Shown in pieces: positions 45,082-64,000 of a stretch of DNA of 64,000 nt. The stretch lies in contig JAFRTM010000003.1 of the NCBI GenBank assembly GCA_017439185.1, forward strand, positions 32,670 through 96,669, given 5' to 3'. The notes below the pieces were generated by a model. It had not been told where the DNA came from. It was given only the letters and a program-made list of their open reading frames with translations, and did no database searches. The translations under genes were made by a program, and so were the position numbers. The DNA comes from Bacteroidales bacterium (GTDB taxonomy: Bacteria; Bacteroidota; Bacteroidia; Bacteroidales; P3). Each line of letters begins with the position of its first letter. Position 1 is the first letter of the stretch.

Positions 45082-45100
45082 TTGCTTTCTCGCCAATAAA

Positions 45101-45135
45101 CCCACTGCCCACTGACTACTGGCCACTGATCACTT
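45101..45135 (+). repeat. 7-bp tandem array (NNNACTG)
   Basis: Units CCCACTG, CCCACTG, ACTACTG, GCCACTG, ATCACTT. It fills the gap between the convergent M16 and fucosidase genes and overlaps the fucosidase stop codon. Confidence 0.65.
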
Positions 45136-46371: not shown

Positions 46372-46424
46372 AAGTCATTATATTTCAAACGTGAATTTTA
46401 GAAGTCTACTATAGAGTTTCATGG

Positions 46425-46482
46425 TTTTACCCTTTCGGGTATAAAAACTCATTTTTCTATATATTATACCCGATAAGGTGTA
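46425..46482. promoter_or_regulatory. Two inverted repeats between fucosidase and ATPase cassette
   Basis: TTTTACCC-tttc-GGGTATAAAA (46425-46446) and TATACC-cgataa-GGTGTA (46465-46482). They resemble operators of a DNA-binding repressor, but no such gene is adjacent. They lie 53-111 bp upstream of the fucosidase ATG. Confidence 0.35.
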
Positions 46483-46484
46483 AG

Positions 46485-46553
46485 TTGCCCGATTTTGTCG
46501 AAAATTTTTGCCCGTTTTTGTCGCATTTCGTTGCCTGTTTTTGTTGTTTGCTT
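46485..46553. repeat. 23-bp tandem array, downstream copy
   Basis: Three 23-bp units with core TTGCCYGWTTTTGTYG. The first unit (46485-46507) is identical to the first unit of the array at 47875. It ends 2 bp from the stop codon of the DUF4143 ATPase. Confidence 0.85.
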
Positions 46554-46555
46554 TT

Positions 46556-47824
46556 TTAGTCTTTAAGGTTTGTGACGGGGACAACGTATATTCCGTCATC
46601 TCTGCGATAGGAGGTATTGCCACCTGTCAGTACCATCATAAACGAGGGGGGCGTTAATTCGGTGTCCTCTACCTTTTGTTTTAGTGTCAGCAGGTTTCTG
46701 GCGGCATCGTCTATTTGTCTGCTTCCCAGTTTTACTTCCACTGGAGCCCACCTTCCATCATATAGAGATATTATCATGTCTGCTTCCAGTCCAGTCCGGT
46801 CGCGGTAGTGTAGGACCTCGCCGTCGTTCGCTTGGGCGTAGACCTTTATATCGCGAGCGCAGAGTGCCTCGAAGAGTAGTCCGAACGTTTCAAAGTCTTG
46901 CAATATCTTCTCTGGTGTGAGTCGCAATGCGGCCACCGCCATCGAGGGATCGCAAAATAGGCGTTTGTTGGATGTTCGTATTGCTGATTTCGATCTTATG
47001 TTGGGCATCCAGGCAGGGATGTCTTCAATCACGAATATTCGCCTTAATGCGTTGAGGTAACTGTCCAGTGTTCGGTCCGAGATTCCTATGTCGTTTGTTT
47101 CGATGTCTTGTAGTATGGTCTTGTTCGAGGCCAGTGTCGCTGTGTTACGTGCCAAGGAGCGCAGTAGTAGTCTCACTCTCTCTGGATTCTTTTCTATGTT
47201 GTCTATCCTCGACACGTCTTGGTTTATGACCATGTCCAGATAGTTGCGAGGCACCTCCAGCCTCGCTTCCCTGCTCAGCGTCAGTGCTCCGGGCCATCCC
47301 CCGCGGGCTACGAGGTAGGCCAGCTCTTCTATGGGCGTATCGGTAATGCTTTCTATGTTTTCGGCGGTACCGTCAAAAAGTTCTCTCAGCGAAACCCCAC
47401 CTTTGCTGTCGCCTGATTCATATAGGCTCATAGGTCTCATCGTCATCCTTGCTATTCGCCCAGTTCCGGTATGTTGCGTCGCGTTGTCGGTAGGCACTGC
47501 CGAACCGGTAAGTATGAATTGTCCGACTGCCCCTCTTCTGTCTATCGCATATCTTACGGCATCCCATATCGAAGGATACATCTGCCATTCGTCCAGGAGT
47601 AGCGGAGTCTCTCCGTTAAGCAATAGTGATGGCTTGCTGTTCATTACTTCGGCATAATGTATAGTCTTGTCAGGGTCCTGTAGGTAAACGGCACTTTTGG
47701 CTGCCTGTTCTGCCGTGGCTGTCTTGCCGCACCATTTGGGTCCTTCTATCAAAACAGCACCCGTACACGCCAGTTTTTTTGCTAATATTTTGTCGTAAAT
47801 CCTTGATTTATACTCAATTTTCAT
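46556..47824 (-). CDS. AAA ATPase with DUF4143 domain
   Basis: 422 residues from the ATG at 47824. The frame remains open for 65 codons upstream, but those codons translate the repeat array, so I reject them. Walker A is GPKWCGKT (28-35) and Walker B is PLLLDEWQ. The C-terminal DUF4143 part has a PD-(D/E)XK-like region (YRDRTGLEADMIISLYDGRWAPVEVKLG). These ATPases are widespread, present in many copies in Bacteroidota, and of unknown function. The gene and its promoter are bracketed by matching repeat arrays. Confidence 0.88.
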   Translation of the reverse strand: MKIEYKSRIYDKILAKKLACTGAVLIEGPKWCGKTATAEQAAKSAVYLQDPDKTIHYAEVMNSKPSLLLNGETPLLLDEWQMYPSIWDAVRYAIDRRGAVGQFILTGSAVPTDNATQHTGTGRIARMTMRPMSLYESGDSKGGVSLRELFDGTAENIESITDTPIEELAYLVARGGWPGALTLSREARLEVPRNYLDMVINQDVSRIDNIEKNPERVRLLLRSLARNTATLASNKTILQDIETNDIGISDRTLDSYLNALRRIFVIEDIPAWMPNIRSKSAIRTSNKRLFCDPSMAVAALRLTPEKILQDFETFGLLFEALCARDIKVYAQANDGEVLHYRDRTGLEADMIISLYDGRWAPVEVKLGSRQIDDAARNLLTLKQKVEDTELTPPSFMMVLTGGNTSYRRDDGIYVVPVTNLKD

Positions 47825-47851
47825 ATGTAAGATTGTTTGTATATCCGATTG

Positions 47852-47859
47852 CAAATATA
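47852..47859 (-). promoter_or_regulatory. Promoter -7 box of the DUF4143 ATPase gene (TATATTTG)
   Basis: TATATTTG on the minus strand, 27 bp before the ATG. The upstream array begins 15 bp further up, where the -33 element would be. Confidence 0.65.
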
Positions 47860-47874
47860 CAAAAATATTTTTAA

Positions 47875-47943
47875 TTGCCCGATTTTGTCGAAAATTTTTG
47901 CCTGTTTTTGTCGTTATTTGTTGCCTGATTTTGTCAAAATTTA
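47875..47943. repeat. 23-bp tandem array, upstream copy
   Basis: Three 23-bp units (47875, 47898, 47921), in the same orientation and phase as the copy at 46485. A weaker pair with the same spacing may be present at about 48050-48090 (GACCCGTTTTTCG, GGCCTGTTTTTAG). Confidence 0.85.
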
Positions 47944-48132
47944 GCGATCCAATCTCAAAATATAAATCAAAATTCCTAAAAACGCCCCAAATTTGCCACG
48001 AAAAACTTTCTAGCGGCAAATTGCCCGTAAAATATGCATTCGTTCAAAATTGACCCGTTTTTCGCCCTCGTGTGGCCTGTTTTTAGTATTCGCTACATGT
48101 GCACGTGCGTTATTTGGGGTGCCTATCTAAAT

Positions 48133-49011
48133 TCAGGCCTCCCCATTGCTCTCTCCGAACTCCAAGTCTATCTTGTTTACTGCCGATACCTTCGTCTGGT
48201 CTATAATTCTTGCGTATATCTGCGTGGTATTGATGTTCGAGTGCCCAAGCAGCTTGCTCACTGTGTACAGGTCGGCTCCCAGCGTCAGCATCATCGTCGC
48301 GTGCGTATGTCTTGAGGAGTGAAATGTCACGTGTTTGTCTATCCCTGCCTCTTTTGCCCATTCTCCAATAATCTGGTTCAGCGTGTATCGCGATGGCAGT
48401 TTGAATACGCACACTTCGCTACCTGTCTCGCATCTCTCTGGTAGGCACTCTACCGCCTGCTTTGACAAGGGTAGCCACAGAGGGTTCCCCGTCTTCTTCT
48501 GTCTCAGTGTTACCCACGTCTGGCCTCCGTTTATGTTTATGTCTCGCCATCTTAGCGCTCTTACGTCGCTGATTCTCAGTCCGCAGAATACGCTGAACAG
48601 ATAGGCACGCTTTACCATCCCGTCGCGGCACTCTGTAGCTCTCAACCGTTTTACCTCCTCGATGGTTAAGTATATCATCATCTGCTCCTCTTTTTTTATC
48701 CTCTCTGTATGGTTTATCAGTACAAACGGGTTCCGTTCAATCATTTCCTCCCTAACCGCTTCGTTCAGCGCCGCCCTCAGGCAGTCCTGGAACACCTTCG
48801 CCGTTGCGGCTGATAGTGGCTTCCCCTGTTTCGTTTTTGCTTTCTTCAGAAAGTCTATGAACCCAAGGCAGTAGGCCTTCCCCGCGTCTCTCAGTCTGCA
48901 GTCTCCGTATTGGCACAATAGCCTCGTTGTGAGGTCTATATGCTCGATTAGGCTTGCACTGCAGCCGGACTTCTTTTCTCTATAGAGCTTCATCCATTCA
49001 ATAAGAGTCAT
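48133..49011 (-). CDS. Tyrosine recombinase (phage-integrase family)
   Basis: 292 residues. The catalytic set is complete: Arg146 (FCGLRISDVRAL), Lys173 (QKKTGN), His231 and Arg234 (HSSRHTH), His257 (LLGHSNI) and Tyr266 (TTQIYARI). The N-terminal core-binding domain is short, and no arm-binding domain is evident, as in Bacteroides invertases. It lies 32 bp after the truncated adhesin, in the same direction, and so is probably read from the adhesin promoter. No other mobile-element genes adjoin it, which favours a resident invertase over an integrase of a mobile element. Confidence 0.92.
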   Translation of the reverse strand: MTLIEWMKLYREKKSGCSASLIEHIDLTTRLLCQYGDCRLRDAGKAYCLGFIDFLKKAKTKQGKPLSAATAKVFQDCLRAALNEAVREEMIERNPFVLINHTERIKKEEQMMIYLTIEEVKRLRATECRDGMVKRAYLFSVFCGLRISDVRALRWRDININGGQTWVTLRQKKTGNPLWLPLSKQAVECLPERCETGSEVCVFKLPSRYTLNQIIGEWAKEAGIDKHVTFHSSRHTHATMMLTLGADLYTVSKLLGHSNINTTQIYARIIDQTKVSAVNKIDLEFGESNGEA

Positions 49012-49043
49012 AAACCATCTTTTTTTCCGTTGAATAAAACTCC

Positions 49044-52000
49044 TTAGCTGTATTCGTATTCTTTGAACTCCGTCCGACAGTATTTTATGTCTCCATAGGC
49101 GTACACTATGGGCGAAGCCATCGTGACTCCTTCGCAGAACGACTGCACCGGGAGGGCATCTGACTTCAAATTAACCCAAGCCGAGTCCAGCGTGAATTTG
49201 ATATGGTTGTTCACCGTCGTTTGGCAGCCAAAGTTATCAGTCAGCACCAGCTGGCAGCCACTCGCAGCATCGCCCCATTGCGGGCGAACCCATAGAGTGT
49301 CCACCTCTTGCTCTGTATGGACATCACCTGTGCACGAAAGTCCTCGTTCTTCAAGTGTTACATTGAACCCCCATGACAGCGGAAGCTTGTCCTCAGAAAG
49401 TTTCAGTTCCCACTCAAATATCCAACCGTTGTCCTCCTCCCAACTGTCGCATACCTGCACTTTCCACTCTCCGTTTAACGGACATGTCATGAGATTCTCA
49501 AAACCCTGCCAAGGGTGGTACACCTGTGCGGTCGGTTCTCCCGATGTCATTGTCGTTGGCATTACATAATACGAGTACCCTGTGGGACCATCAGTCGCAA
49601 TGTTAGCCACTTCGTAAACATAGCCATCGTCTCCCGAAGCATAGTTGTAGCCGTTGTAATTTGACCACACATAGTTTGCTCCAGTGCCAGGAGCATTATC
49701 AGCCTCATCACAATATCTAGAACCATCATCATTATAATTAGGGGATCCAAATGCCACATAGTAAAGACTATTACCCTCTTGATATGGCCAGCCATATGTG
49801 TCGTCATCCTCTCCACCCCTATTCGTCTTAAAATAGTCTTGTAGAATTATTGCACTGCGGTTGTTGGGACAAATAAGCTTTATCTGAATATCACCGATAA
49901 AACTGTGTTCCATGTTGATGCGCAGAAAACGGATGTCGTCAGCACTTGTAACGGTAGCCGCAGGATCAAAATCGTTGAAAGTCACACTTGATGTGTAACA
50001 TGAGATATCACAGTTGGGACCATCAGGGATAAATGTTCGAACACCTTGCCCCAATGCCGCCTCTATATTTACGGCTGGCTCTTCAATCTGCAAGTCACTG
50101 CCACTGCCCGTACCAATAACAATCCTGCCCTCGGTACCCACGCATATTTCCCCCAAGTAAATATCGGGTAACGCATCGCTGGCAGCGTGAATACCCCCAG
50201 AAACACGTATGCGTGCCTGCGCCGTGGCTTCACACGTGCCGTCACTTACAGTAACCGACACATCGTAACCACGCTGCTGTTGGGTGGCCGTGGCGTAACC
50301 ATTGAGCGGCACTGTTACGGTTGAACCCGATGACTCATGGTTGCCAGCATTATCGTGAGCATTCCATGTCCACGAGTAGGAGTTAGGGGTTAGATCGGTT
50401 GATACGCCTAATGTAACTGACGTGGGGATGGTATCAGCCAATGCAGGCGCACAGCGATTGATATAACATACACCATCTACCATTTCATCGCATCCACCAC
50501 CTACTGTTATCGACACATCTGCACACTTTACTTTTACTGTCCACGACGCCGTTACAGCACACCAGTTTTTTGTCCCGTCGTTATATTCACTCAATGTCGC
50601 CGTTATTGTAACCGTCCCTGGAGCATGGCCAGTCACCACACCGCTATTGGAAACGGTGGCGACAGCGTCGTCGCTGCTGCTATATGATATTGTGCCGCCA
50701 CTTGGGGTCAGACCATTTGTAACAGCTTGGGTTGTTGTTGCATCCACCATGATTTCACGGTAGGACTCGGCAAACGAAAGGCTTCCACTTGTGCGTGGTG
50801 AACAACATTGTATGCAGAATTTGGTGTTAGGACGATTGAAAGTCTTATATCCTGTGTATGGAGACGCCATCGAAGGATCATCGCTGTCACTATGATAATA
50901 AATTTGCTTATTTTTGTCTGCGGCAGTGTAGTAAAAAGTGTAATCATACCCATCATAAGAGCCAGAATGGTCGATAATAGCCAATACCAGATTACCATCC
51001 CCTGTATATTCAAACGGGACATCAAGGGTAAACCAATTCCAACCTGTAGAGCAGTTCATCCCACCACTATATACGAGGTGCAAAGCGCCTGATGCTATCC
51101 AGTCGTTGCCATCGTCGAATTCCGTTTTATTCGTCTCACCCATATACACCTCTATCCTGGAGGATTTTGATGCCATTGCTGTTGTGTAGCGGTATTGGAA
51201 TGCCATGCTGTATATCGTGCCGCTACAAAGTTCATCCTTGTCGTAAATTATTTGGCGATACCCATAATAATACCAAGGACTGACTGGACCATAATTATAA
51301 CTATAATTATTTCCATCACCGATAGTGTGAGTTGTGTGACCACATGCGCTTACATTAACCGTGTATGTGGCACTTGACGAGCAATACAAGGTGCCATTGA
51401 CTGTTTCTTGCGAAAGCGTGGCGGTTATGGTGGCCGAACCTTCATTGACACCAGTCACCTCTCCAGTTGTAGGGTTGACTGTCGCAACTGTGTTATCACT
51501 GCTACTGTATGTTATTGTTCCGTTATTTGGAGTGCAACCGTTGCTGGCCGTTTGCGTGACATGTCCTCCAACGGAAGTATTCAACGATGCGTTAGCGAAG
51601 CTGAGACTCCCACTGCGATCTTGACAATTTACGACACAGCATGTTTGCGTTAGAGTGACCGTGAACCTGCGGCGATTCTGTTGGCCTCCACTATTTTTAT
51701 AGTACCAAATTGTGATAGTTCCGCCTGTGATTGTTGTAGTATGAGATTGGCCATCTTGAATATCCATCACCTGAGTACCATCAGTACCTCCATTATATAC
51801 ATACAAATGCCCCTTGTTGCTTACTCCCTCTGTCATTTGTACAGTTACGGTGACAGGACATCTCGATTCTTCGACAGAAATAGTGTATTTAACGTCTAAA
51901 GTTCCCACGTATCTTTCAGCGTTTATGGTATATGGATGTCCACATCCACTGTAAGGCAAGGTGTTTGTGACGTTTCCTGTCAAATCCCATGATGCAGTTC

Positions 52001-52469
52001 TATTTGTCCACGTACCCTGAGCATAACCATACCCCACCCCCACCATCACCAGCAAAACCAACAACGCCAACACGCCTCTGCCAAACATAGACTTACCATA
52101 GACTTTGCTCATCAAGCTCGCATGCCGTGCACAACTCTTGGAAAAACGATTTGTGACGGTAGCCGCTTGCTCTTTCTCGAACTTGCCTCCAGAGTTTTCG
52201 TTAAGCCGAACGCAGACATGCTTGCATATATGCTGAGGCGAGAAAACGACCGATGCATAGAATATGCATCGAACTTGCCTCCTACTTGCCTCCGAGGTGA
52301 TTCCTTTTGATTTGTCTTCCATCTGGCCACTGACAACTGACAACTGGTTGTTATATCCTTCCATAGTAGAACGAGTTTCACGCACTACGACCTTTTCGCC
52401 GCTGCTTCTCTCTCCCCCTCTTGCCTCTGCACCGCCATTTTTCTTTTCCAAATAGTAATTATTAATCAT
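49044..52469 (-). CDS. SprB-like surface adhesin, N-terminal half only (truncated cassette)
   Basis: 1141 residues. A 119-residue polar extension precedes a signal peptide (MSKVYGKSMFGRG..., ATG at 52112, possibly the true start). Then come a CUB-like part, Ig-like BIG2 repeats (YSSSDNTVATVNPTTGEVTG), a Tyr/Trp-rich module (about 410-560) and a P-domain-like region (LNGEWKVQVCDSWEEDNGWIF). From about residue 410 to 1126 it aligns with residues about 1160-1891 of the gene at 53732. Similarity stops at Gly1126; 15 unrelated residues (DIKYCRTEFKEYEYS) then precede the stop. It has no C-terminal anchoring domain. Confidence 0.85.
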   Translation of the reverse strand: MINNYYLEKKNGGAEARGGERSSGEKVVVRETRSTMEGYNNQLSVVSGQMEDKSKGITSEASRRQVRCIFYASVVFSPQHICKHVCVRLNENSGGKFEKEQAATVTNRFSKSCARHASLMSKVYGKSMFGRGVLALLVLLVMVGVGYGYAQGTWTNRTASWDLTGNVTNTLPYSGCGHPYTINAERYVGTLDVKYTISVEESRCPVTVTVQMTEGVSNKGHLYVYNGGTDGTQVMDIQDGQSHTTTITGGTITIWYYKNSGGQQNRRRFTVTLTQTCCVVNCQDRSGSLSFANASLNTSVGGHVTQTASNGCTPNNGTITYSSSDNTVATVNPTTGEVTGVNEGSATITATLSQETVNGTLYCSSSATYTVNVSACGHTTHTIGDGNNYSYNYGPVSPWYYYGYRQIIYDKDELCSGTIYSMAFQYRYTTAMASKSSRIEVYMGETNKTEFDDGNDWIASGALHLVYSGGMNCSTGWNWFTLDVPFEYTGDGNLVLAIIDHSGSYDGYDYTFYYTAADKNKQIYYHSDSDDPSMASPYTGYKTFNRPNTKFCIQCCSPRTSGSLSFAESYREIMVDATTTQAVTNGLTPSGGTISYSSSDDAVATVSNSGVVTGHAPGTVTITATLSEYNDGTKNWCAVTASWTVKVKCADVSITVGGGCDEMVDGVCYINRCAPALADTIPTSVTLGVSTDLTPNSYSWTWNAHDNAGNHESSGSTVTVPLNGYATATQQQRGYDVSVTVSDGTCEATAQARIRVSGGIHAASDALPDIYLGEICVGTEGRIVIGTGSGSDLQIEEPAVNIEAALGQGVRTFIPDGPNCDISCYTSSVTFNDFDPAATVTSADDIRFLRINMEHSFIGDIQIKLICPNNRSAIILQDYFKTNRGGEDDDTYGWPYQEGNSLYYVAFGSPNYNDDGSRYCDEADNAPGTGANYVWSNYNGYNYASGDDGYVYEVANIATDGPTGYSYYVMPTTMTSGEPTAQVYHPWQGFENLMTCPLNGEWKVQVCDSWEEDNGWIFEWELKLSEDKLPLSWGFNVTLEERGLSCTGDVHTEQEVDTLWVRPQWGDAASGCQLVLTDNFGCQTTVNNHIKFTLDSAWVNLKSDALPVQSFCEGVTMASPIVYAYGDIKYCRTEFKEYEYS
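49093..49123 (-). other. Candidate recombination site, left copy (31-bp inverted repeat)
   Basis: 31 bp identical to 59373-59403 on the opposite strand. It contains CCATAGTGTACGCCTATGG: 6-bp inverted arms around a 7-bp spacer. Homology between the two adhesin genes ends exactly at its outer edge. Confidence 0.7.
52319..52346 (+). repeat. 7-bp tandem array (NNNACTG) inside the adhesin N-terminal extension
   Basis: CCATCTG, GCCACTG, ACAACTG, ACAACTG. On the minus strand it encodes QLSVVSGQ near residue 42 of the long form of the left adhesin. An intergenic-type repeat here suggests that the first 119 codons may not be translated, or that they can shift frame. Confidence 0.6.
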
Positions 52470-52600
52470 AGTACGCGTGTGTATGTGAATATATTTACTT
52501 TTTTCTTCCCCGTACGTGCAAAGCCCGCAAACTCTAAGTCGCTACCACTCAATCAATTTCCTCCCTGAGACCGCCTGTTTGCGCACAATACACGAACCTG

Positions 52601-52608
52601 CAAATATA
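52601..52608 (-). promoter_or_regulatory. Promoter -7 box of the left adhesin cassette (TATATTTG)
   Basis: TATATTTG on the minus strand, about 130 bp before the ATG at 52469. It would also drive the recombinase gene. Confidence 0.7.
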
Positions 52609-53110
52609 CAAACTATTTTTAACATACCAAAGTTAATAATTATAAAAAATATTAAATTATAAAAAATACAATGTGAACATCCTGATAATCAACACCCGCA
52701 ATTCCGCAATTTTAACATTTCAATTTTTACCCCCAGCACCGCCACCTCACAGTTCATTATTACTATCCCCAAAACATCGTTTCGATAATGATAAATCACT
52801 GATAATCTGCTATCTAGTGTTTTTATGTCAACACTCCACTCATTTTTCAAATTTTTCCAAGCCTTATCCTTGTTTCTCCAAATCCTAACTCCTTGACACA
52901 TAGCACACAAATATGTATCAACTCTATGTGAAGCCTATGGTGAATTTTGTCCAAACCAGTCATGTCCCGAAGCCATACCCTCAGGCACTCGTTCTCCGTT
53001 TCCATTCCCATGAAATTTTCATGCCGAATATCTTGTCATTCGATTCACATCAGTCGTTTTCTTGCGTCAAAAACCACTATAATTCAATGCCGATTTTACG
53101 TATTTCGTCC

Positions 53111-53119
53111 TGTTGATAA
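53111..53119. other. Single DnaA-box-like nonamer
   Basis: TGTTGATAA differs by one base from the complement of TTATCCACA. It is alone in the divergent intergenic region, 66 bp from parS. The rest of 52470-53731 shows AT-rich DNA, a palindrome CATGAAATTTTCATG (53009-53023) and the elements listed here, but no gene I can support. Confidence 0.3.
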
Positions 53120-53184
53120 CTTGTTAATATTTTGTCGGTAGGTTGTTGGTGTTTTTGTTAGCAATGCGTATAATCAGTTAGTTA

Positions 53185-53200
53185 TGTTTCACGTGAAACA
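53185..53200. other. Perfect parS site
   Basis: TGTTTCACGTGAAACA matches the conserved 16-bp ParB-binding palindrome with no mismatch. Such sites normally cluster near the replication origin and seed chromosome segregation complexes. Confidence 0.88.
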
Positions 53201-53206
53201 TTGTTG

Positions 53207-53375
53207 AAAAATCCGGCAGGTAAACGACATTACCTGCTACCCGCATCACCTCGGAAAGGTGCGCTCCCCGATTGTCAGAGTCTTGCCCGTAATCCGGCTA
53301 CTTATTATTCCAGGGGGAGCGAAGAGAGGAAAAGGGAGACGAGGCACTCCCTGACACCATGGTGTCGGATTTTTT
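53207..53375 (-). ncRNA. Candidate structured RNA in the divergent adhesin region
   Basis: On the minus strand a -7 box TAACTTTG (53379-53386) is followed by a 14-bp palindrome GACACCATGGTGTC (53353-53366), a long helix CGCTCCCC/GGGGAGCG (53262-53269 with 53314-53321), CACCT/AGGTG, and at the end a hairpin GCAGGTAA/TTACCTGC (53216-53237) followed by CCGGATTTTT, a terminator form. On the plus strand the 14-bp palindrome is followed by eight T, so that strand could also terminate. It matches no RNA family I can name. Confidence 0.4.
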
Positions 53376-53603
53376 TTGCAAAGTTAAAAACACCGATGAA
53401 AAACCATTCTTACAAACTGTTTGCCAGTAATTTACCTATCGGGTCACATTTTTCGGCGTCAGGGTTGCAAATAAGGCAGAACACTGGAAAACTATTGAAC
53501 TTGAGAGAGTTTTCTTGATTTTGTAAATAGTTACTAACCAACAGTTTTTGATTTTTTAAGAAAAATTATTATTTATAAACTTGTGTATGTTGAAAAATGT
53601 TAG

Positions 53604-53611
53604 TATCTTTG
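53604..53611 (+). promoter_or_regulatory. Promoter -7 box of the right adhesin (TATCTTTG)
   Basis: TATCTTTG, 120 bp before the ATG. The leader carries an alternating purine-pyrimidine tract (CGCACATACGCGTGCGTGCG, 53681-53700 region). Confidence 0.7.
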
Positions 53612-53731
53612 CATTTCAACACCATAGTTTTTTGTCAGTTCAAAACGGACGTAAGATACTGTGGCAGAGTTTTTTATTACGCACATACGCGTGCGTGCGC
53701 AGATACAAGAATAAAAATAATACCGCAATAG

Positions 53732-56700
53732 ATGGAAAATTATTATTACGAAGAGACTACGAGAAGCGTAACCGCCCAGAATGAAAATCGCGGAAACGAG
53801 ATGCAGAGGACCTGTAACGAGAGAGGAGAAAAATGGGAGAAGGAGACGGGCGTACCCGTATTCAAAGACACCCGAATCGGAGCCAAGGGAGGCTGGTCTC
53901 AGGTATCACACAGATATAACTCACAGATAAGTGAGAGGTTATTGAGCGATGACTGTGTGTCAGAGGTTTCTGAGCACTGGCTAAAAACAAGCAAAAGAGA
54001 AACTACAGATATGAATGGCAAAGGATTGAGAAGAGGAGTGCAAGCATTGGTCGCAGCAGTGTCCTTGCTGGCAATGGTATTGAATGGAGTAAACGCGTTG
54101 GGACAGTGTGCGCATACGGAGAAGACTGTTGGAACTGGAGATGCAAATACAAACAGGAACACATTGGGTTATCCAATAAACACGTATTATAAATACAACT
54201 ATTCGCAAATCATTTATACGCCTGATGAAATTTGTGGAAACAACACAGCTGGTGTGATTTATGGAATAGCATTTCGGCACTATACCGGCAATTTTAATGC
54301 AAAAACCAGTAATGTTGAAATATACATTGGTGAAACTGATAAAAATGAGTTTAACAACACGACAGATTGGATTACAACAGGGTTGACAAGGGTTTATAGT
54401 GGGGGCTTGGACTATAATGGTAATGGATGGAAATGGTGTCAATTTTCCAATGAATTTCACTATTCTGGTCATAGGAATTTAATTGTAGCCATATGGGATA
54501 AATCAGGCGATTACAAGAATGATAACTCCAGGTACTTTTACCAATCATCTTGCACCGGCTACAAATTCCTGAATTTCAGAGATGACAACAATCAAATTGC
54601 AAGCATAGAAGCCCCCGGACGCACAGCAAATCTCAGGGCTCAATACCGACCTCAGACAAAGTTTTGTGCAGAATGCTGCAATAGTAGTTATTCTGTTCCG
54701 GTTTGTTTTGATTTTGAAGATGCGACTGCAAGTAATTCTTACAGCACAGACTCAGGATTGCCATTATGCTGGGGGAGAATCTATGGAGGGACAACTACGG
54801 GATGCGCTCCTCATGTGTACAATGGGACAGCATACGCCAGGGCAAACGACGGAAACGGAATAATAATGCTTGCTGCAAATAACAGCACGACGTATGGCAA
54901 CCCGAATTATGTTATACTGCCCCAAGTTACAGGAGTTGCAGCAGGCACAACAATAACATTTAACGCATGGTGGGAAAATACCAGCTATTGTACATTGACT
55001 TTGGGTTATATGACTAACCCAGGTAACCCAGCTACTTTTGTGGCAATAGGAAGCGCAACGCCTGTTGCTGCGGCAGGCGGCTCTGCGGCGACTGGCATTA
55101 ATGAGTTTACTGTGCCTGCCGGATTCCCGTCAGGAGCCTATATTGCATTCAGAATCAGTAACACAAATGGCACTTGGTACACAGTTACCATTGATAACAT
55201 CTGTTTTAAAAACTGTACAGAACCAACATTTACTCTTAGTGGCGGGAACCTTACTTGTGCGATGGGAGGAACATGCAACGGGCGTACTTTAACCACAAAC
55301 AACACAGGTACACAGACCTGGGCATCGAGTGCTACCAATGTTGCTACGGTGGATGGCAGCGGAAACATAACAATGGTGGGTGCAGGCACGACCACAATAT
55401 CGGTGACGGTTCCCGAAGACAACGGACTATGCGGAGCTTCGGCGAGCTACCAGCTCACGGTGACCTGCCAGACACCAACTTTTGCAATAACACCAAACAG
55501 CGGAACATTGACCATCGGCAACACCAGAGACCTGAACACTTTGCTCAACAACCCGACGGGAGGCTCGGTTACGTGGGGCACGAGCGCCGCAGGCGTGGCA
55601 AGCGTGACCGATGGCGTGATCAGAGCTGAAGGAGCCGGAACAGCAACGATCACCGCCACTCTTGCGTCCAGCGGAATATACTGCGGGGCTACGGCTACAT
55701 ATACCGTGACGGTGAATGAATGTGACGAGGAGATTTTGTTGAACGGCAATATCACGAAGGACATTGAGTGCGGCAGAACTTATTGTTTCTACGACAGCGG
55801 CAAAGATGGAAGCTATAGCAACAATGAGGACTACACGGCGACCTTCACTTCTGGGGGGGTGATAAAGATGCGTTTTGTGTCATTCACTGGAGAGAGCGGT
55901 TGGGACTACATTAGCATCAACGGTACGACAAGCGACGTAACCGAAACATCAACCATTGCCGGCAACACCACGTTCACAGCATCTGTGAGTGGCGGAATAG
56001 TCACTGTGACATGGCATTCGGATGGATCTAACGTTTATGCTGGATGGAAAGCATATATTACAGCTGAGGATTGCTGCACACAGACTCCGTCGTTCTCGCT
56101 CAGTTCGACAAGCGGAACAAAACAAGTTGGAGAGACGGTAAACCTGATGCCATTGCTGACCAACACACCTGCAACAACAGTGTCATGGACGTCGAGCAAC
56201 GTGAATGTCGCCCAAGTGAGCACTGCTGGAGTTGTGACAGCCGTCGGGCCAGGAACTGCAGTGATAACGGTGAGGAGGGAGAAAGACGGGAACTGGTGTC
56301 CCGCCACGGCGACATACACCATCACAGTGCCATGCCCGACATACACTGTGCCGCTGTGTTTTGACTTTGAAGACTACGGAACCGCTGGAAATTCAGAAAG
56401 TACAGATGCCGGCATTCCAGCCTGTTGGGACAGATTGTACACAGGTTCATCCGCTGGATATGCTCCACACGTGGTGAACGGCAGTGTTGCATACTCGTTG
56501 GACGGCAACGGTCTTGTGTTGATTAGCGGAGATGCCACTTACTACGGAAATAACAGTTATGTGATAATGCCGTATATTACTGGCATCACTATTGGGGATA
56601 CAATCAAATTTAATGCATGGTGGGAAAATGCAAGCAATGGAACTTTGACGTTGGGTTATATGACAGACCCCGCAAATGCAGGGTCATTTGTAGCACTGAA

Positions 56701-59700
56701 CACCACAGCCATAGCGCCAGCCACGAGTTCAAATCCGGTGACACCAACGACAGGTTATACAACAACAGGTGCGGCAGATGTGACTTATGCCTACGTGCTG
56801 AATACAAATCTGCCGACAGGTGCGCGACTTGCATTCAGGAGGTACTATACCAGCAGCTGGTATTGTGTGGTGATAGACAACATCTGCATCAGCCATCCCT
56901 GCACGTCACGCACAAGCGGAACGCTGGCATTCAACAACCCATCGCAGACGATAGCGGTTGGGCAGCACTATACCCAGACACCCGTTAACGGCTTGACCCC
57001 GTCAGACGGAACTGTAAGCTACCATTCCAGCAACCGTTCAGTAGCGACAGTGGATCCAGCCACTGGAGAGGTGACAGGATTGGCGGAAGGGACAACCACT
57101 ATCACTGCAACCCTGTCGGGTATGACGGTAAGTGGAACATATTACTGTCCGGTGAGTACAAGCTACACTATAGATGTCACGGCATGCGAATACACCAACA
57201 ACACAATAGGGACTGGAAGTAGCCAGTCATATTATTATGGTCCTGTAAACGATTACTACAATTATGGTTATCGCCAAATAATATACGACAAGAGCGAACT
57301 CTGCAAAGGAGCAATACACAGCATAGGGTTCCAGTATGCCGGAAGCACTACGATGACTAGCAAGGGAAGTGACATATACATTTATATGGCCGAGACGGAC
57401 AAGACGGAGTTTGACAACACCAACGACTGGATTGACGATGACGACTTCACCCTGGTGTACAGCGGCGGCATGAACTGCCAGAACGGATGGAACTGGATAG
57501 CCCTGGACAATACGTTCAACTACACTGGCACGAACAATCTCGTAGTGGCTATCCACGATCGTTCTGGGGCCTATGATGGCATAGACTATACATTTTATTA
57601 TACCGTTGGATCGGAAAACAAACAAATATATTACTACAACGACAACACAGACGCTTCTATGTCCGCCCCGCCAACCGGAACAAGAACAACAAACCGACCG
57701 AACACTAAGTTCTGCATCGAGTGCTGCACTGGACGAACAGGAACACTGTCGTTTGAAGAGACATACCAGACCATTTTGGTTGGGCAAACATATACCCAAC
57801 GAGTGAGCAACCACCTGACACCGAGCAACGGAGACGAACAATATGAGAGCAGCAACCCAGGAGTGGCAACAGTGAACCCAACCACAGGCGCAGTCACAGG
57901 CGTAGCCCCCGGCATAGTGACCATCACTGGTACCATCAAGTCTTACGACAACGGCAGTGGTACAGAATATTGCGCAGTCACAGCGACATACACTGTGGAG
58001 GTGAAATGTGCCGAGGTGGCCATAACCTCGCCTAACGGATGTGCCGAGATAGTGGACGGTATCTGTATGATAAATGCCTGTGCTCCGACATCGCTGACCC
58101 TCGGAGTGGAGAGTACTATGACACCGACGAGTTATACCTGGGTATATAACGGTTACGACAATACGGGAGAACACGAGAGTCACGGCTCAACCCTCACGAT
58201 GGCACTGAACGAGCAGCGAGGGTATGATGTAAGAGTGACAGTGAGCGATGGAGTATGCGACGCTACCGCGAGAGCGCGAGTCAGAGTGTCGGAGGGTGTA
58301 GTTCCTACCAGCAACGCCTTGCCAGACATCGACCTTGGGCATATTTGCGTTGGAACGGAAGGCCACATAACCATCGGAAGCGGAAGTGGAAGCGACATTC
58401 AAGTTGACGAACCTTCCGTAACCGTGGAGGCTGTTTTGGGACAAGGAGTCCAAACATTCATTCCTGATGGCCCTAATTGTGACACAAAGTGCTACAATTC
58501 CAATGTAACATTCAACGATTTCAGCGAGACTGCCACAGTCACAAGTGCCGACGACATTAAATATCTAAGAATAAACATGGAGCATAGCTACATCGTGGAT
58601 CTTCAGATAAAGCTAATCTGTCCGAGCAATCGCAGTGTGATAATTTTCCAAGACTACTACACTACGGCAAATGGTGGTTTGGACGATGACACATATACAT
58701 GGCCTCACACTCACATTTCTGGTGGTCGAAACATATTGGAACAGGTTGTATTGGGTACCCACAACGCAACAGATGGTACGACAACATCAACAAGATGCAA
58801 CCCCGCGAATAATCCGGCAGGAATAGGCGAGGATTACTGTTGGTCCAACAACACAAGTGACGGATACACCTATGCCAGTGGCAATGGGTACATATATGAA
58901 GCTGCAAACCTAAATACAATAGCGACACAGACATATCAAGTCAAGCCATCGGACATGACAAACATGAGTCAGATATATCATCCATGGGAAGATTTCTCAG
59001 GATTGATAGGCTGTCCATTGAACGGCACATGGCAGGTGCAGGTATGCGATAGCTGGGAAGAAGACAACGGCTGGATATTCAATTGGGAGCTGAAACTGTC
59101 TGAAGATAAGTTGCCTACACAATGGGGCTTCGACGTAACTTTGAAAGACCGCTCGCTTGACTGCGGCGAAGACGCCGTGCATACCGAGCAGGTCGGAGAC
59201 ATACTGTATATCCGTCCCCAGTGGGGAGACCGGGCCACCGACTGTCAGTTGGTGTTAACTGACAACTTCGGCTGCCAGACAACACTGAGCAACCATATAA
59301 ACTTTGTAATTGATTCGGCGTGGATTAACCTTAAGTCGGGGAATCCTGTACAGCAGTTCTGCGAGGGAAGCGCGATGGCTTCGCCCATAGTGTACGCCTA
59401 TGGCGGAAAGGCTGCGAGCTGGGAACTTGAGTGGTGGGTCAACGATGGTGCGCACACTACGATAGCAGGAAATAATACTTCAATAACCACGGGTTCTGCC
59501 TCAATCTGGGGCGGTGCGGCCAACGTTACAGTAGGAAACGGAGCGGGTGGAGATGAACACGGAATAGTAAATATAGGATACGCGGGCGCGGGTATGCCCG
59601 CGGGCGTGTATCATTATATAATAAAGGGAAAGAAATGCGGAGATGCAAGCTGCGAACATTGTGCGGACAATACCAAGGAGGGAACAATCACGGTGTACGC

Positions 59701-62700
59701 CCTGCCGGAGGCAACGGCAGAAGGGTCGACGATATGCTCGGGAGGTAACAACGGCACAATAACGGTGTCGGCTACGGCCGGAAGCGGCGGCACTTTGTCG
59801 TACAGTCGTGACAACGGTTCGCATTGGCAGTCTGGTAACGAGTTCACGGGCTTGACAGCCGGGAACTATACCATCACAGTGAGAGAGAGTCATGCTGACG
59901 GCGTGAACTGCGACATAACGGTTCCGGTTTCGGTGAACGTGTATGAGACGCTGACGGCAAACAACGTTGTGGGAGGCGGTAGTTTCTGCATAGGGACAAC
60001 CACCAACCTGACGGAGACGCCGAGCGGCGGTTCGGGCAGTTACAACATAGTATGGAAGAATGGTTCGACGGTGTTGCAGACCAACAACGGAGTGACAACG
60101 AGTACATACGCCGCGAATATTAGCACTGCGGGGACTACAACCTATACGGTGGTGGTGACGGATGCGGTGTGTGGCAATAGTGTGGAGAAGACGGTGACAG
60201 TGGAGGTGTATGAGACACTGGGAGTGACGGCCATCACGGGAGCTGGAAGTTTCTGTAGGGGAACCACAGTGACTTTGACCGAAGTGCCGAGTGGAGGAAA
60301 CGGCAGTTACACCTATCAGTGGCAGTCGTCGCCCAACGGCACGTCAAACTGGACTAACGTGGGTAGCGGAAATAATATTTTCCAGCCGAATACGTCGACG
60401 GCTGGAACGACATATTACCATGTGACAGTTAGTGACAACTGCGGCAACACGAGGACGACAGATGCGGTTGCAGTAACGGTATGGCCCGATTTGACGGCAG
60501 ACATCACGGCCCCGGTGACGGGAACCTGTATAGGGCCGATGGTGACGCTGACGGTGAGCAACCTGAACGGAGTTGGAGGTTACAGCTATGCCTGGGAACA
60601 GTCGGCGACCGGAGGGGCTGGCACATGGAGTGCGGCCAGCGGCACGAACAACCAGGCATCATATACGGCATCAACGACTGCGGCCGGTACGATGCACTAC
60701 AGGGTGACGGTAACAGATAACGGCCGGACTGGAGACTGCAAGACGGTGGTGAAGGAGACAACGGTGACGGTGTGGCCGACGCTGACGGTTGAGGTAAGCG
60801 ATGGCACGACAGGAATCTGTAAGGATGCCAGCTTCAGCCTAACGGCGACGGCTGGTGGATACAGCAATACGTCGAATTTGAGTTATCTGTGGGAGCAGTC
60901 GGCTAACGGCACGAATGGATGGAGTGCGGCCAGCGGCACGAACAACGCGGCAACCTACACGGTGCCGACGGGGACACCCGGTACGATGTACTACAGGGTG
61001 ACGGTGACGGATGCAGGTTATGAGGCTCCGTGTAAGACGGTGACGTCAGTTGTACGCAGTGTGGTGGTGTGGCCGACGCTGACGGCATCAATATCGGGAG
61101 GGACTGCAGGCGTTTGTGCCAGTGAGACGGCTCACAACCTCACGGTTAATGTTACAAATGGTAGTGGATCTACGTTGACCTATCAGTGGCAGTCGTCGCC
61201 AAATGGCAATGAGCCTTGGACTAATGTAGGAAACAGCAGCGCGACGTACGGGGCCGACATCTCGGAGGCGGGTACAACGTATTATAGAGTGATTGTTACC
61301 GATGCAGGCTATGTTTCGCCTTGTAATGTAGTAACAGCTGACGCAATATTGGTGGTGGTAAAACCGAATCCGACGGTTAGTGTGACGAATAAGGAGCAGG
61401 AGATATGTGCTGGAGCGGTGGAAAATATGGTGATAACTGCGACGAACGGAACGATAAGTGTGAGTGACAACGGAACACCAGGACATTTGCCCACAGGGTT
61501 GACATACAATTCTTCGTCGCATACAATTTCGGGAAGTCTGAATACGGCTGGGGACTATTATATTACGGTGACGGTGACGAGCGATCAGACACCTAGTTGT
61601 GGTACGGCGACAGAGACGATACATATAAAGGTTAATCGTTTGCCGATAGTGGATCTGTCTCCATCAAGCGCTACGTTGTGTAACGGACAGAGTGTTGACA
61701 TTACGGCCACACCTTCGTTGGGTACAGGCGATTTGACATTGACATGGAGTCCCACGACGTCGTTGACGATAACCAACGGAGGCCAAAACGTGACGGCGGC
61801 ACCGACGACAACTACGACATACAGATGCACGGTGTCAGACGGTAATAGTTGCTCGTCATATAGCGATGTAACGATTACGGTGAATCCGCTGCCAGTGCTG
61901 ACGTTGGGAGCAGTATCACATAACCCGTTGAATTGTTATGGGGATAATAATGCAATTATACCGGTAAGCACGTCGGCAACTACGCCGAACTATTATTTCT
62001 CAAATGACAACGGAGAGAACTGGGTGCCAAGTGGAGGACAGTCTGGTAGAAATTATAACTTCCCAGGATTGGGAGCAGGTACGTACGACTTGTTGGTGAA
62101 AGATGGTAATGGATGTGTCAGTGCGGTAAGGCAGGTCGAGATTACGCAGCCGGCTGAGTTGGAGTTTGTCACGGTCAGTGGAACTGAGCCGTTGTGCCAT
62201 GGAGATGGAAATGGAAGCATTACGGTGACTATCACTGGCGGTACGGCGAACTATCAGTTCGCTCTCGATAACGAAGGAACAGGCGATGCCAACTACTCGG
62301 AAGCGCAGGCTTCTACGTCATACACGTTCTCGGATGTCAGTGCAGGTACCCATACCATATATATTAAAGACGCAAACGGTTGTAAGATCAACCAATCATA
62401 TACCTTGAACGAGCCTCAGGTAGTAGCTGCTGCGGCAATCGCGGCATCGGCCACCACGGTATGCTCGGGTACAGAGGTGACGCTGAGTTCTCAGACTGCG
62501 ACAGGTGGCACGCCTGGTACTGGCACTGATCCGGCATATACTTACACATGGACTGCATCGGCCGGCTCGGCACCTGCCACGACTACGCCCACCGCACCTG
62601 CGGTGACTGCGGCTACCCATACTCCTACGGCTACGACAACCCCTGTGACGGTGACCTATACGCTGACGGTGAAGGATGCTCATAACTGCTCAGATGTGAA

Positions 62701-64000
62701 GACGATAGACGTGGTGGTGAACCCGCTGGTGGAACTGACGGTGACAGGGACGGCGGAGCAGACGTTGTGCCTTGGCGAGAGCATGAGCAATGTGGTGGTG
62801 ACGTACGCCAATGCTGCGTTGAACAGCGGCAGCTGGCCTTCGGTGGCAGGCGTGACGGCAGTGGAAAATCCTACAGGGACCTACACCTTCAGCGGCACAC
62901 CGACCACGGCAGGTGACTATTCATATAATATAACAGCGACGAGCATTTACACACCGCAGTGCGAGGCAAAGAATGCCACAATCACGTTGCATGTGAAAGA
63001 CACGCTGGTGCCCGGATTGCCAGCTACGGCAGAGATATGCGCCACGGCGTCGGAGGCTTTGAACTCGGTGACGCTGACATCGGCTGGAACTACTACAGAC
63101 TATACATACGACTGGACAGTGCCGAGCGGCGGAACGATAACCTCTGGCGGTGGCGGAAGTAATACGGTGACGGCTCAGTTTGCCACTGCAGGTACCTACA
63201 CGATAACGCTGACGGTGACGAATAAGACGACTAACTGTGTGTCGCATGCGAAGACAGTGGTGACGGTGAACGCAGTGCCAGTGGTGGCGATAGCCGACCC
63301 GGGTACGTTGTGCCCCAATGTGGGAACGCAGACGCTTACGGGTAATTTGACGACCACGACGTCGGCAAACTATACTTACGTGTGGAGTGGAGACTTGACG
63401 ATGAGTCCGGCTACGCCCGCCGCGACGAGCGCAACATCAATAACGACGACGGCGACGATACCGAGCACGCCCTGCACGGGAAGCTATGCGGTGACGTTGA
63501 CGGTTACTGACGGCAAGGGCTGTAAGAGCCATACGGAAAGGGTGGTGAGTGTACAGGATGTGACGGCACCAGAGATAGCCGGCGCACTGCCTGCCAAGAC
63601 GGTGGACGGCTGCAGTGCAGACCTGAGCACGCTGTATCCGGCGAAGGCCACGGTGGCCGAACTCGAGGCAGAGGCTACTGCGCTGAGCGGCACGCTGAGC
63701 ATCAGCGACAACTGCGGAGGAGCCGTGACGATAAAGAGTGTGAGCGAGACGTCGACCGGCACGTGTCCGATAGTGGTGACACGTGCCTATACGATAACGG
63801 ATGCCTGTGGCAATAGCAGCACGATAGCGCAGACAATCAACGTGGAAGACCAGACAGCGCCGACGTACACGAGACCTGCCGACATCACCTTCTACAAAGA
63901 TGCCAACTGCCTGGCCGACACCAGCACGGCAGCAGCCGGCGAGCCTACGATGGTGGCCGACAACTGCACAGCGGCGCCGACGGTGACCTACACCGACGGA
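53732..64000 (+). CDS. Giant SprB-like surface adhesin, 5-prime 3423 codons (runs off the window)
   Basis: The frame is open from ATG 53732 to the last base. A 93-residue polar extension precedes a signal peptide (ATG at 54011). Then come two Tyr/Trp-rich modules (from about 150 and about 1160), two MAM-like DFED modules (about 325 and 875), BIG2 Ig-like repeats, a P-domain-like part (about 1600-1790), and past residue 1891 a long series of PKD/Ig-like repeats, two SprB repeats (CYGDNNA..., CHGDGNG...) and HYR-like modules (DNCGGAVTI, DACGNSSTI). Such proteins are usually exported by the type IX system through a C-terminal signal, here beyond the window. Confidence 0.88.
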   Translation, partial: MENYYYEETTRSVTAQNENRGNEMQRTCNERGEKWEKETGVPVFKDTRIGAKGGWSQVSHRYNSQISERLLSDDCVSEVSEHWLKTSKRETTDMNGKGLRRGVQALVAAVSLLAMVLNGVNALGQCAHTEKTVGTGDANTNRNTLGYPINTYYKYNYSQIIYTPDEICGNNTAGVIYGIAFRHYTGNFNAKTSNVEIYIGETDKNEFNNTTDWITTGLTRVYSGGLDYNGNGWKWCQFSNEFHYSGHRNLIVAIWDKSGDYKNDNSRYFYQSSCTGYKFLNFRDDNNQIASIEAPGRTANLRAQYRPQTKFCAECCNSSYSVPVCFDFEDATASNSYSTDSGLPLCWGRIYGGTTTGCAPHVYNGTAYARANDGNGIIMLAANNSTTYGNPNYVILPQVTGVAAGTTITFNAWWENTSYCTLTLGYMTNPGNPATFVAIGSATPVAAAGGSAATGINEFTVPAGFPSGAYIAFRISNTNGTWYTVTIDNICFKNCTEPTFTLSGGNLTCAMGGTCNGRTLTTNNTGTQTWASSATNVATVDGSGNITMVGAGTTTISVTVPEDNGLCGASASYQLTVTCQTPTFAITPNSGTLTIGNTRDLNTLLNNPTGGSVTWGTSAAGVASVTDGVIRAEGAGTATITATLASSGIYCGATATYTVTVNECDEEILLNGNITKDIECGRTYCFYDSGKDGSYSNNEDYTATFTSGGVIKMRFVSFTGESGWDYISINGTTSDVTETSTIAGNTTFTASVSGGIVTVTWHSDGSNVYAGWKAYITAEDCCTQTPSFSLSSTSGTKQVGETVNLMPLLTNTPATTVSWTSSNVNVAQVSTAGVVTAVGPGTAVITVRREKDGNWCPATATYTITVPCPTYTVPLCFDFEDYGTAGNSESTDAGIPACWDRLYTGSSAGYAPHVVNGSVAYSLDGNGLVLISGDATYYGNNSYVIMPYITGITIGDTIKFNAWWENASNGTLTLGYMTDPANAGSFVALNTTAIAPATSSNPVTPTTGYTTTGAADVTYAYVLNTNLPTGARLAFRRYYTSSWYCVVIDNICISHPCTSRTSGTLAFNNPSQTIAVGQHYTQTPVNGLTPSDGTVSYHSSNRSVATVDPATGEVTGLAEGTTTITATLSGMTVSGTYYCPVSTSYTIDVTACEYTNNTIGTGSSQSYYYGPVNDYYNYGYRQIIYDKSELCKGAIHSIGFQYAGSTTMTSKGSDIYIYMAETDKTEFDNTNDWIDDDDFTLVYSGGMNCQNGWNWIALDNTFNYTGTNNLVVAIHDRSGAYDGIDYTFYYTVGSENKQIYYYNDNTDASMSAPPTGTRTTNRPNTKFCIECCTGRTGTLSFEETYQTILVGQTYTQRVSNHLTPSNGDEQYESSNPGVATVNPTTGAVTGVAPGIVTITGTIKSYDNGSGTEYCAVTATYTVEVKCAEVAITSPNGCAEIVDGICMINACAPTSLTLGVESTMTPTSYTWVYNGYDNTGEHESHGSTLTMALNEQRGYDVRVTVSDGVCDATARARVRVSEGVVPTSNALPDIDLGHICVGTEGHITIGSGSGSDIQVDEPSVTVEAVLGQGVQTFIPDGPNCDTKCYNSNVTFNDFSETATVTSADDIKYLRINMEHSYIVDLQIKLICPSNRSVIIFQDYYTTANGGLDDDTYTWPHTHISGGRNILEQVVLGTHNATDGTTTSTRCNPANNPAGIGEDYCWSNNTSDGYTYASGNGYIYEAANLNTIATQTYQVKPSDMTNMSQIYHPWEDFSGLIGCPLNGTWQVQVCDSWEEDNGWIFNWELKLSEDKLPTQWGFDVTLKDRSLDCGEDAVHTEQVGDILYIRPQWGDRATDCQLVLTDNFGCQTTLSNHINFVIDSAWINLKSGNPVQQFCEGSAMASPIVYAYGGKAASWELEWWVNDGAHTTIAGNNTSITTGSASIWGGAANVTVGNGAGGDEHGIVNIGYAGAGMPAGVYHYIIKGKKCGDASCEHCADNTKEGTITVYALPEATAEGSTICSGGNNGTITVSATAGSGGTLSYSRDNGSHWQSGNEFTGLTAGNYTITVRESHADGVNCDITVPVSVNVYETLTANNVVGGGSFCIGTTTNLTETPSGGSGSYNIVWKNGSTVLQTNNGVTTSTYAANISTAGTTTYTVVVTDAVCGNSVEKTVTVEVYETLGVTAITGAGSFCRGTTVTLTEVPSGGNGSYTYQWQSSPNGTSNWTNVGSGNNIFQPNTSTAGTTYYHVTVSDNCGNTRTTDAVAVTVWPDLTADITAPVTGTCIGPMVTLTVSNLNGVGGYSYAWEQSATGGAGTWSAASGTNNQASYTASTTAAGTMHYRVTVTDNGRTGDCKTVVKETTVTVWPTLTVEVSDGTTGICKDASFSLTATAGGYSNTSNLSYLWEQSANGTNGWSAASGTNNAATYTVPTGTPGTMYYRVTVTDAGYEAPCKTVTSVVRSVVVWPTLTASISGGTAGVCASETAHNLTVNVTNGSGSTLTYQWQSSPNGNEPWTNVGNSSATYGADISEAGTTYYRVIVTDAGYVSPCNVVTADAILVVVKPNPTVSVTNKEQEICAGAVENMVITATNGTISVSDNGTPGHLPTGLTYNSSSHTISGSLNTAGDYYITVTVTSDQTPSCGTATETIHIKVNRLPIVDLSPSSATLCNGQSVDITATPSLGTGDLTLTWSPTTSLTITNGGQNVTAAPTTTTTYRCTVSDGNSCSSYSDVTITVNPLPVLTLGAVSHNPLNCYGDNNAIIPVSTSATTPNYYFSNDNGENWVPSGGQSGRNYNFPGLGAGTYDLLVKDGNGCVSAVRQVEITQPAELEFVTVSGTEPLCHGDGNGSITVTITGGTANYQFALDNEGTGDANYSEAQASTSYTFSDVSAGTHTIYIKDANGCKINQSYTLNEPQVVAAAAIAASATTVCSGTEVTLSSQTATGGTPGTGTDPAYTYTWTASAGSAPATTTPTAPAVTAATHTPTATTTPVTVTYTLTVKDAHNCSDVKTIDVVVNPLVELTVTGTAEQTLCLGESMSNVVVTYANAALNSGSWPSVAGVTAVENPTGTYTFSGTPTTAGDYSYNITATSIYTPQCEAKNATITLHVKDTLVPGLPATAEICATASEALNSVTLTSAGTTTDYTYDWTVPSGGTITSGGGGSNTVTAQFATAGTYTITLTVTNKTTNCVSHAKTVVTVNAVPVVAIADPGTLCPNVGTQTLTGNLTTTTSANYTYVWSGDLTMSPATPAATSATSITTTATIPSTPCTGSYAVTLTVTDGKGCKSHTERVVSVQDVTAPEIAGALPAKTVDGCSADLSTLYPAKATVAELEAEATALSGTLSISDNCGGAVTIKSVSETSTGTCPIVVTRAYTITDACGNSSTIAQTINVEDQTAPTYTRPADITFYKDANCLADTSTAAAGEPTMVADNCTAAPTVTYTDG
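59373..59403 (+). other. Candidate recombination site, right copy (31-bp inverted repeat)
   Basis: Identical to 49093-49123 in inverted orientation, and in the same reading frame (MASPIVYAYG). Upstream of it the two genes are clearly diverged at DNA level; within it there are no differences; downstream there is no similarity. Confidence 0.7.

Follow-up and report, generated by a model that had tools for sequence, protein, structure and literature searches.

The two adhesin genes and their shared 31-bp repeat

The window, by which we mean the whole stretch of 64,000 nucleotides of Bacteroidales DNA analysed here, comprises the final 64,000 bases of contig C15 (96,669 bp) from a genome of 2.15 Mb in 28 contigs that is 92% complete. 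Towards its right end it holds two homologous adhesin genes in divergent orientation and, beside the left one, a tyrosine recombinase gene. Each adhesin gene begins with what we call a head, and the right one continues into a giant C-terminal part, the stalk. An earlier note on this DNA had proposed that a 10.3-kb segment inverts at the locus and thereby exchanges the heads on the stalk. The features are listed below, under names that follow this proposal.

48133..49011, minus strand: tyrosine recombinase (P0003), 292 aa, with core-binding and catalytic domains; outside the proposed invertible segment
49044..52469, minus strand: left adhesin gene, 1141 aa by translation of the open reading frame
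49044..49092, minus strand: 15-codon tail and stop codon, which by translation would end whichever head stands on the left
49093..49123, minus strand: proposed left recombination site, 31 bp, with its inner dyad at 49093-49111
49093..52469, minus strand: left (putatively idle) head, 1126 residues, Big_2 and P-domain, without the stalk
49093..59403, no strand: proposed invertible segment, 10,311 bp, containing both heads and both promoter-like elements
52601..52631, minus strand: promoter-like element belonging to the left head, 131 nt upstream of its ATG: TTTG-N19-TATATTTG, with the -7 box beginning at 52608
53581..53611, plus strand: promoter-like element belonging to the right head, 120 nt upstream of its ATG: TTG-N20-TATCTTTG, with the -7 box beginning at 53604
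53732->64000, plus strand: right adhesin gene, at least 3423 codons, frame open at the contig end
53732..59403, plus strand: right (joined) head, 1891 residues, fused to the stalk in the sequenced state
59373..59403, plus strand: proposed right recombination site, 31 bp, with the dyad at 59385-59403
59404..64000, plus strand: shared stalk, at least 1531 residues, running off the contig

The open reading frames and their alignment agree with the earlier description of the locus, according to which the left gene is cut short after residue 1126 and the right one continues past residue 1891, their similarity ends at the same codon and in the same frame within an exact 31-bp inverted repeat, and a tyrosine recombinase gene, which Pfam supports, lies 32 bp past the truncated end. 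Over the aligned parts (left residues 147-1126 vs right residues 950-1891, 928 columns), the two genes are 58.9% identical at the amino-acid level and 58.8% at the nucleotide level. Between the heads, synonymous sites have reached saturation (pS 0.84, pN 0.29 in the codon alignment), and the same codon is used at 210 of the 547 identical residues (38%). Before the aligned part there are 949 residues in the right head vs 146 in the left. The right head also carries two copies, 53% alike, of a module of about 180 residues for which no match was found in the left gene. Big_2 and P-domain were identified by Pfam in both heads. A Pfam scan of four head pieces gave nothing above cut-off. The first residues of both heads are somewhat alike (MINNYYLEKK and MENYYYEE) and are followed by a long stretch before a hydrophobic segment (window 52440-53760). 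Bacteroidota promoters have the consensus TTTG and TAnnTTTG, and the promoter-like elements of the two heads, both inside the proposed segment, are of this type and resemble each other. No RNA families were found in 44000-64000 and no tandem arrays in 48000-64000.

Each copy of the repeat (at 49093-49123 and at 59373-59403) is the exact reverse complement of the other, and the match does not extend by a single base beyond either end. Both genes read MASPIVYAYG through it. Homology between the heads stops at the last base of the repeat (residues 1126 and 1891), on the far side of which similarity is not above background; the 15-codon tail of the left gene is likewise unlike the beginning of the stalk. 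Counted from the start codon, the repeat is offset by 3346 nt in the left gene and by 5641 nt in the right, both being 1 mod 3 and hence in the same phase. Inverted repeats in matching phase inside homologous coding sequences are one mark of a programmed, gene-altering DNA inversion locus, and a recombinase gene at the locus (48133-49011) is a second.

The 31-bp identity is exceptional against the synonymous-saturated background, and a chance repeat is disfavoured. No other identical run in the codon alignment of the heads comes near it, the second longest being 14 bp, and a simple simulation at the observed codon identity reached runs of 31 bp in 2 of 5000 cases. The flanks of the repeat are about 74% alike, and 30/31 bases of the repeat, with up to 3 mismatches allowed, occur nowhere in the own genome beyond these two places. 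A conserved protein motif was also considered as the cause of the identity, and rejected. Six of the nine sequences searched match the surrounding head; in five of these the match ends short of the site, and in the sixth (L139) it crosses the site with other residues. A 100-residue query around the site found no match. Because none of the six head-matching adhesins keeps the site peptide, a protein-family motif does not account for the identity of the site.

Within the repeat lies a 6-7-6 dyad, CCATAG-TGTACGC-CTATGG, with 6-bp arms and an asymmetric 7-bp centre, which the own genome has at these two places only and which looks like the core site of a tyrosine recombinase. Of the 31 identical bp, 18 lie towards the head, 7 form the centre of the dyad and 6 lie on the fixed side.

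With respect to the stalk, the giant shared C-terminal part described earlier stands at no fewer than the 1531 residues listed, its end lying outside the available sequence: the right gene lacks its 3' end because the window and contig C15 end together. Pfam domains of the stalk are K319L-like PKD, SprB, He_PIG, PKD and HYR_4C. In three scanned paralogues from the own genome, which has 13 CHU_C matches, TIGR04131 was found at the C-terminus of all three (in two above its cut-off), and Pfam CHU_C was above cut-off in all three; these paralogues thus end in a type IX sorting domain. By analogy with these paralogues, a type IX sorting domain would be expected at the missing end of the stalk. PMC9143113 describes type B domains as directing SprB to secretion; for such proteins, anchoring by PorP-like partners has been proposed there. 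An idle head devoid of the sorting end is therefore expected to be unanchored.

A frame on contig C23 (L203, from base 2), open at the contig start, spans 953 codons and ends in CHU_C, thus representing a detached C-terminus of a giant adhesin. It was considered as the rest of the stalk and discarded, having no end overlap with C15 and being closer to proteins of C18 and C26 than to this stalk. Another giant adhesin of the own genome is a 6334-codon open frame with a CHU_C end, at about 190997-209599 of G000:C24.

The tyrosine recombinase and its relatives

The recombinase gene starts 32 bp past the stop codon of the left gene and 81 bp from the left site. Its product matches Phage_integrase (PF00589, 2.6e-30) and Phage_int_SAM_5 (6.5e-10). 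R146, K173, H231, R234, H257 and Y266, which we take to be the catalytic residues, are invariant in an alignment of four sequences (the recombinase and three relatives) and are also visible in alignments to XerA and to a XerC-like chain; a catalytic domain with R, K, H-x-x-R, H and Y is that of a tyrosine recombinase.

The three aligned relatives, of 379-386 residues, are 46-52% identical to the recombinase, whose M1 aligns near residue 91 of a 379-aa integrase, where the extra N-terminal part of the relatives ends. Arm-DNA-bind_5 was found in the single relative scanned (P0004), and no arm-binding domain was found by Pfam in the recombinase of the locus. If the segment inverts, this suggests how a mobile-element integrase could turn into a local invertase, namely through loss of the arm-binding domain. 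Among 120 genomes of the genus, 33 (own included) match the recombinase at E <= 1e-40, none outside the own genome above 52%. The own genome has two further matches, of 31% and 36%, both on other contigs. The recombinase search of named genomes yielded 48 loci, in three of which (L044, L045, L047) repeats were looked for. Six loci of integrase relatives were searched for attachment sites to compare with the dyad. Either no repeats or only direct ones of 13-16 bp turned up, and by eye these did not resemble the dyad.

Two observations on the relatives may be added. In one of them (L116), 16-bp direct repeats about 5 kb apart (5999-6014 and 10974-10989) flank an integrase and small genes, constituting a candidate small mobile element. 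Three viral contigs (L092, L093, L094) carry an adjacent pair of recombinase matches (47% and about 36%), suggesting paired tyrosine recombinases.

Proposed inversion of the segment and its alternatives

The anatomy of the locus is best explained, with a probability that we put at about 0.82, by a two-state inversion switch presenting one head at a time on the shared stalk. The recombinase would act on the two inverted sites, and the 10.3-kb segment would invert in the cells, carrying along the heads and their promoter-like elements, with the stalk and the recombinase staying outside. In the sequenced state the right 1891-residue head stands in frame with the stalk and the left head stops 15 codons past the site; in the inverted state, as predicted by frame arithmetic, the left 1126-residue head would be joined to the stalk and the right 1891-residue head would end in the 15-residue tail. 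Only the stalk-joined head would carry the predicted type IX sorting domain, and only that head, presumably adhesive in function, would be anchored at the surface. Anatomy and evolutionary tests fit the head swap of the earlier note, and rival explanations fit them poorly; the inverted state itself was not observed.

In one of these rivals, the left gene is the dead remnant of a duplicated full-length adhesin whose stalk was deleted. The 31 bp would be either a relic or the product of short-tract gene conversion, with the recombinase a stranded mobile-element integrase. This would agree with the truncation of the left gene, with the occurrence of recombinase relatives among mobile-element-like small genes and the presence in the scanned relative of an arm-binding domain that the enzyme of the locus lacks, and with exact 22-bp runs between other adhesin loci of the genome. 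We nevertheless consider it improbable. The left gene keeps an open frame of 1141 codons and its own promoter-like box intact, and its amino-acid sequence has remained constrained (pN 0.29 vs pS 0.84). The outgroup test used nine segments, of which four came from own paralogues and five from relatives. At informative positions, the residue shared by most of them was that of the left head 18 times and that of the right head 17 times, with single outgroups ranging from 32:22 to 19:29 (lowest p 0.19). The left head evolves no faster than the right, which fits a head that spends time in service. Constraint and relative rate thus disfavour a decaying remnant. A very recent deletion would also pass the rate test, yet it leaves the 31-bp site unexplained. 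A leftover would not keep 31 identical bp while the aligned heads sit at 59%, and the dyad is not accounted for by deletion.

Alternatively, the switch might be worked by another recombinase of the genome, or through rare RecA-driven inversion. The two additional recombinase matches provide candidates for the former, but neither is on contig C15, and in the own genome the dyad occurs at this locus alone. As a substrate for RecA, 31 bp with flanks about 74% alike is little, and we regard both variants as quite improbable.

The sites could also serve integration or cassette exchange, the recombinase moving heads in and out and inversion being incidental, as might be suspected from nearest relatives that look like mobile-element integrases. 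Inverted recombination sites on a single molecule give inversion, not excision, and the own genome has two sites only, inverted, with no third cassette. This makes cassette exchange very improbable.

Several observations weigh against the head-swap inversion. The assembly of the own genome shows one orientation only. The site was found in one of the 120 genus genomes, namely the own, as was the 19-mer dyad with up to one mismatch, and the exact 31-mer was found in 0 viral contigs. No orthologous locus was found: 3 of the 120 genus genomes (own included) match the C-terminal part of the head at E <= 1e-60, with 36-38% outside the own, and of 190 genomes of the family 2, again counting the own, do so at E <= 1e-62. 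The comparison with related genomes advocated by the earlier note (120 of the genus, 190 of the family) turned up no inverted arrangement; same-species strains and inverted arrangements were sought in the viral contigs and in the genus and family genomes, and none was found. Because the site and close head matches are nearly confined to the own genome, the locus is lineage-specific as far as the searched genomes show.

On the same side stand the arms of the dyad, which are just 6 bp, a dyad of this kind having a chance of about 1% within 31 bp (by arithmetic, with spacers of 6-8); it is therefore supporting, short of proof. The C-terminus of the expressed protein lies beyond the contig together with the end of the stalk. 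The nearest relatives of the recombinase resemble mobile-element integrases, with small neighbour genes (by eye), and not invertases; the 28 stretches around recombinase relatives contain no exact inverted pair of >=22 bp lying >200 bp apart. These stretches do contain some repeats: L115 has a 33-bp pair, 7.8 kb from the recombinase, whose arms are separated by only 122 bp; L119 and L132 have A/T-rich pairs (20 bp and 21 bp, respectively); and further pairs measure 15-17 bp.

Exact 22-bp inverted pairs elsewhere in the own genome belong here as well. One (G000:C26 16260-16281 / 127258-127279; L136, L138) lies in two divergent adhesin genes 111 kb apart; its flanks are 75-80% alike, which is ordinary paralogy. 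A second (G000:C26 105325-105346 / 118117-118138; L137, L138), 12.8 kb apart and with unlike flanks, lies outside the large adhesin frames, one of its arms being some 300 bp in front of an adhesin gene. In favour of the switch speaks a control set of 18 stretches around other adhesin hits. This set, cut at 20 kb or at contig ends, comprised 5 from the own genome (L136-L140) and 13 from four relatives (G019, G105, G087, G048), and 15 of the 18 hold adhesin matches. None of the 18 contains a recombinase homologue (E <= 1e-3), which the same search detects in the window as positive control, or an exact inverted pair of >=19 bp lying >200 bp apart within the stretch; the within-stretch pairs found were one of 16 bp and one of 18 bp, both in L139. 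The C26 pairs show that runs of 22 bp are not unique to the locus; among the stretches examined, only this one combines a 31-bp run, between heads that are otherwise 59% identical, with a dyad and a recombinase. The window itself has an additional exact 22-bp inverted pair, at 6163-6184 and 29773-29794, 23.6 kb apart.

Known inversion systems and a possible coupling to the recombinase

As described in PMC3047005, inversion in M. pulmonis vsa moves a promoter and 5' part before an alternative 3' part, the same has been suggested for Ureaplasma mba/UU172, and Xer-type recombinases have been implicated in mycoplasma inversions at short repeats of surface-protein genes. The present locus resembles vsa and mba/UU172 in the short-repeat inversion of surface-protein genes that would place a promoter and 5' part before an alternative 3' part. 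It differs from mba, which in that account has one anchor-bearing 5' part and various 3' parts, in having two promoter-bearing heads that would compete for one shared 3' stalk, in a giant adhesin presumably of the type IX kind. Because swaps of a promoter and 5' part by inversion are reported for M. pulmonis vsa, the locus is a variant and not an unprecedented form; the earlier statement that its form was not known gives way as regards the principle.

With the pneumococcal cod/SpnIII hsdS genes and PsrA, as presented in PMC7096588, the locus shares a single functional homologue alongside idle ones, intragenic short inverted repeats and a tyrosine recombinase gene close by. In cod/SpnIII, according to the same source, the 15-bp IR1 works together with its upstream sequence. 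The hsdS genes, unlike those studied here, encode methylase target-recognition subunits and have several repeat pairs.

Shufflons of the R64 type have several invertible segments and at least three sites, and only two sites were found here. The R64 shufflon swaps the C-terminal ends of PilV. Its Rci/sfx system, as far as PMC11852207 describes it, resembles the locus in a 7-bp core, an asymmetric 31-nt site and alternative adhesin tips, a likeness that does not amount to membership. R64 has several segments and sites, in contrast to one segment, two sites and N-terminal ends here, and the identity of its sfx sites is 12+7+12 as compared with 18+7+6.

In Bacteroides fragilis, the susC/susD and type I restriction-modification shufflons covered in PMC5729914 likewise invert large coding segments of surface-protein genes, but there whole genes are brought behind an invertible promoter, whereas the segment proposed here carries gene halves with their own promoter-like elements. 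The Bacteroidales inversions described in PMC5729914 and PMC10939037 concern promoters, susC/D genes and restriction systems. Among the papers listed in the literature searches, none concerned a type IX adhesin with swapped N-terminal heads; these searches did not cover the two most pertinent surveys, those of Milman et al. 2023 and Chanin et al. 2024, in which a similar locus is possible. If the segment flips, it would provide a clean two-state tip switch on one giant stalk of presumed type IX type, changing specificity without a change in dosage.

Scans of the 32 bp between the left stop codon and the recombinase detected neither a terminator-like site nor a TAnnTTTG box, and because of this the recombinase may be read from the promoter of the idle head. 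On the same strand, the nearest TAnnTTTG box (49236, inside the left head) did not come up with TTTG/TTG at the right distance; another box within the left head (52089) did. We tentatively consider the possibility, on balance a doubtful one, of a self-metered switch, in which the undisplayed head would set the rate of its own display through its promoter. Under such a coupling, the two switching directions would be unequal and tied to the conditions activating the promoter of each head.

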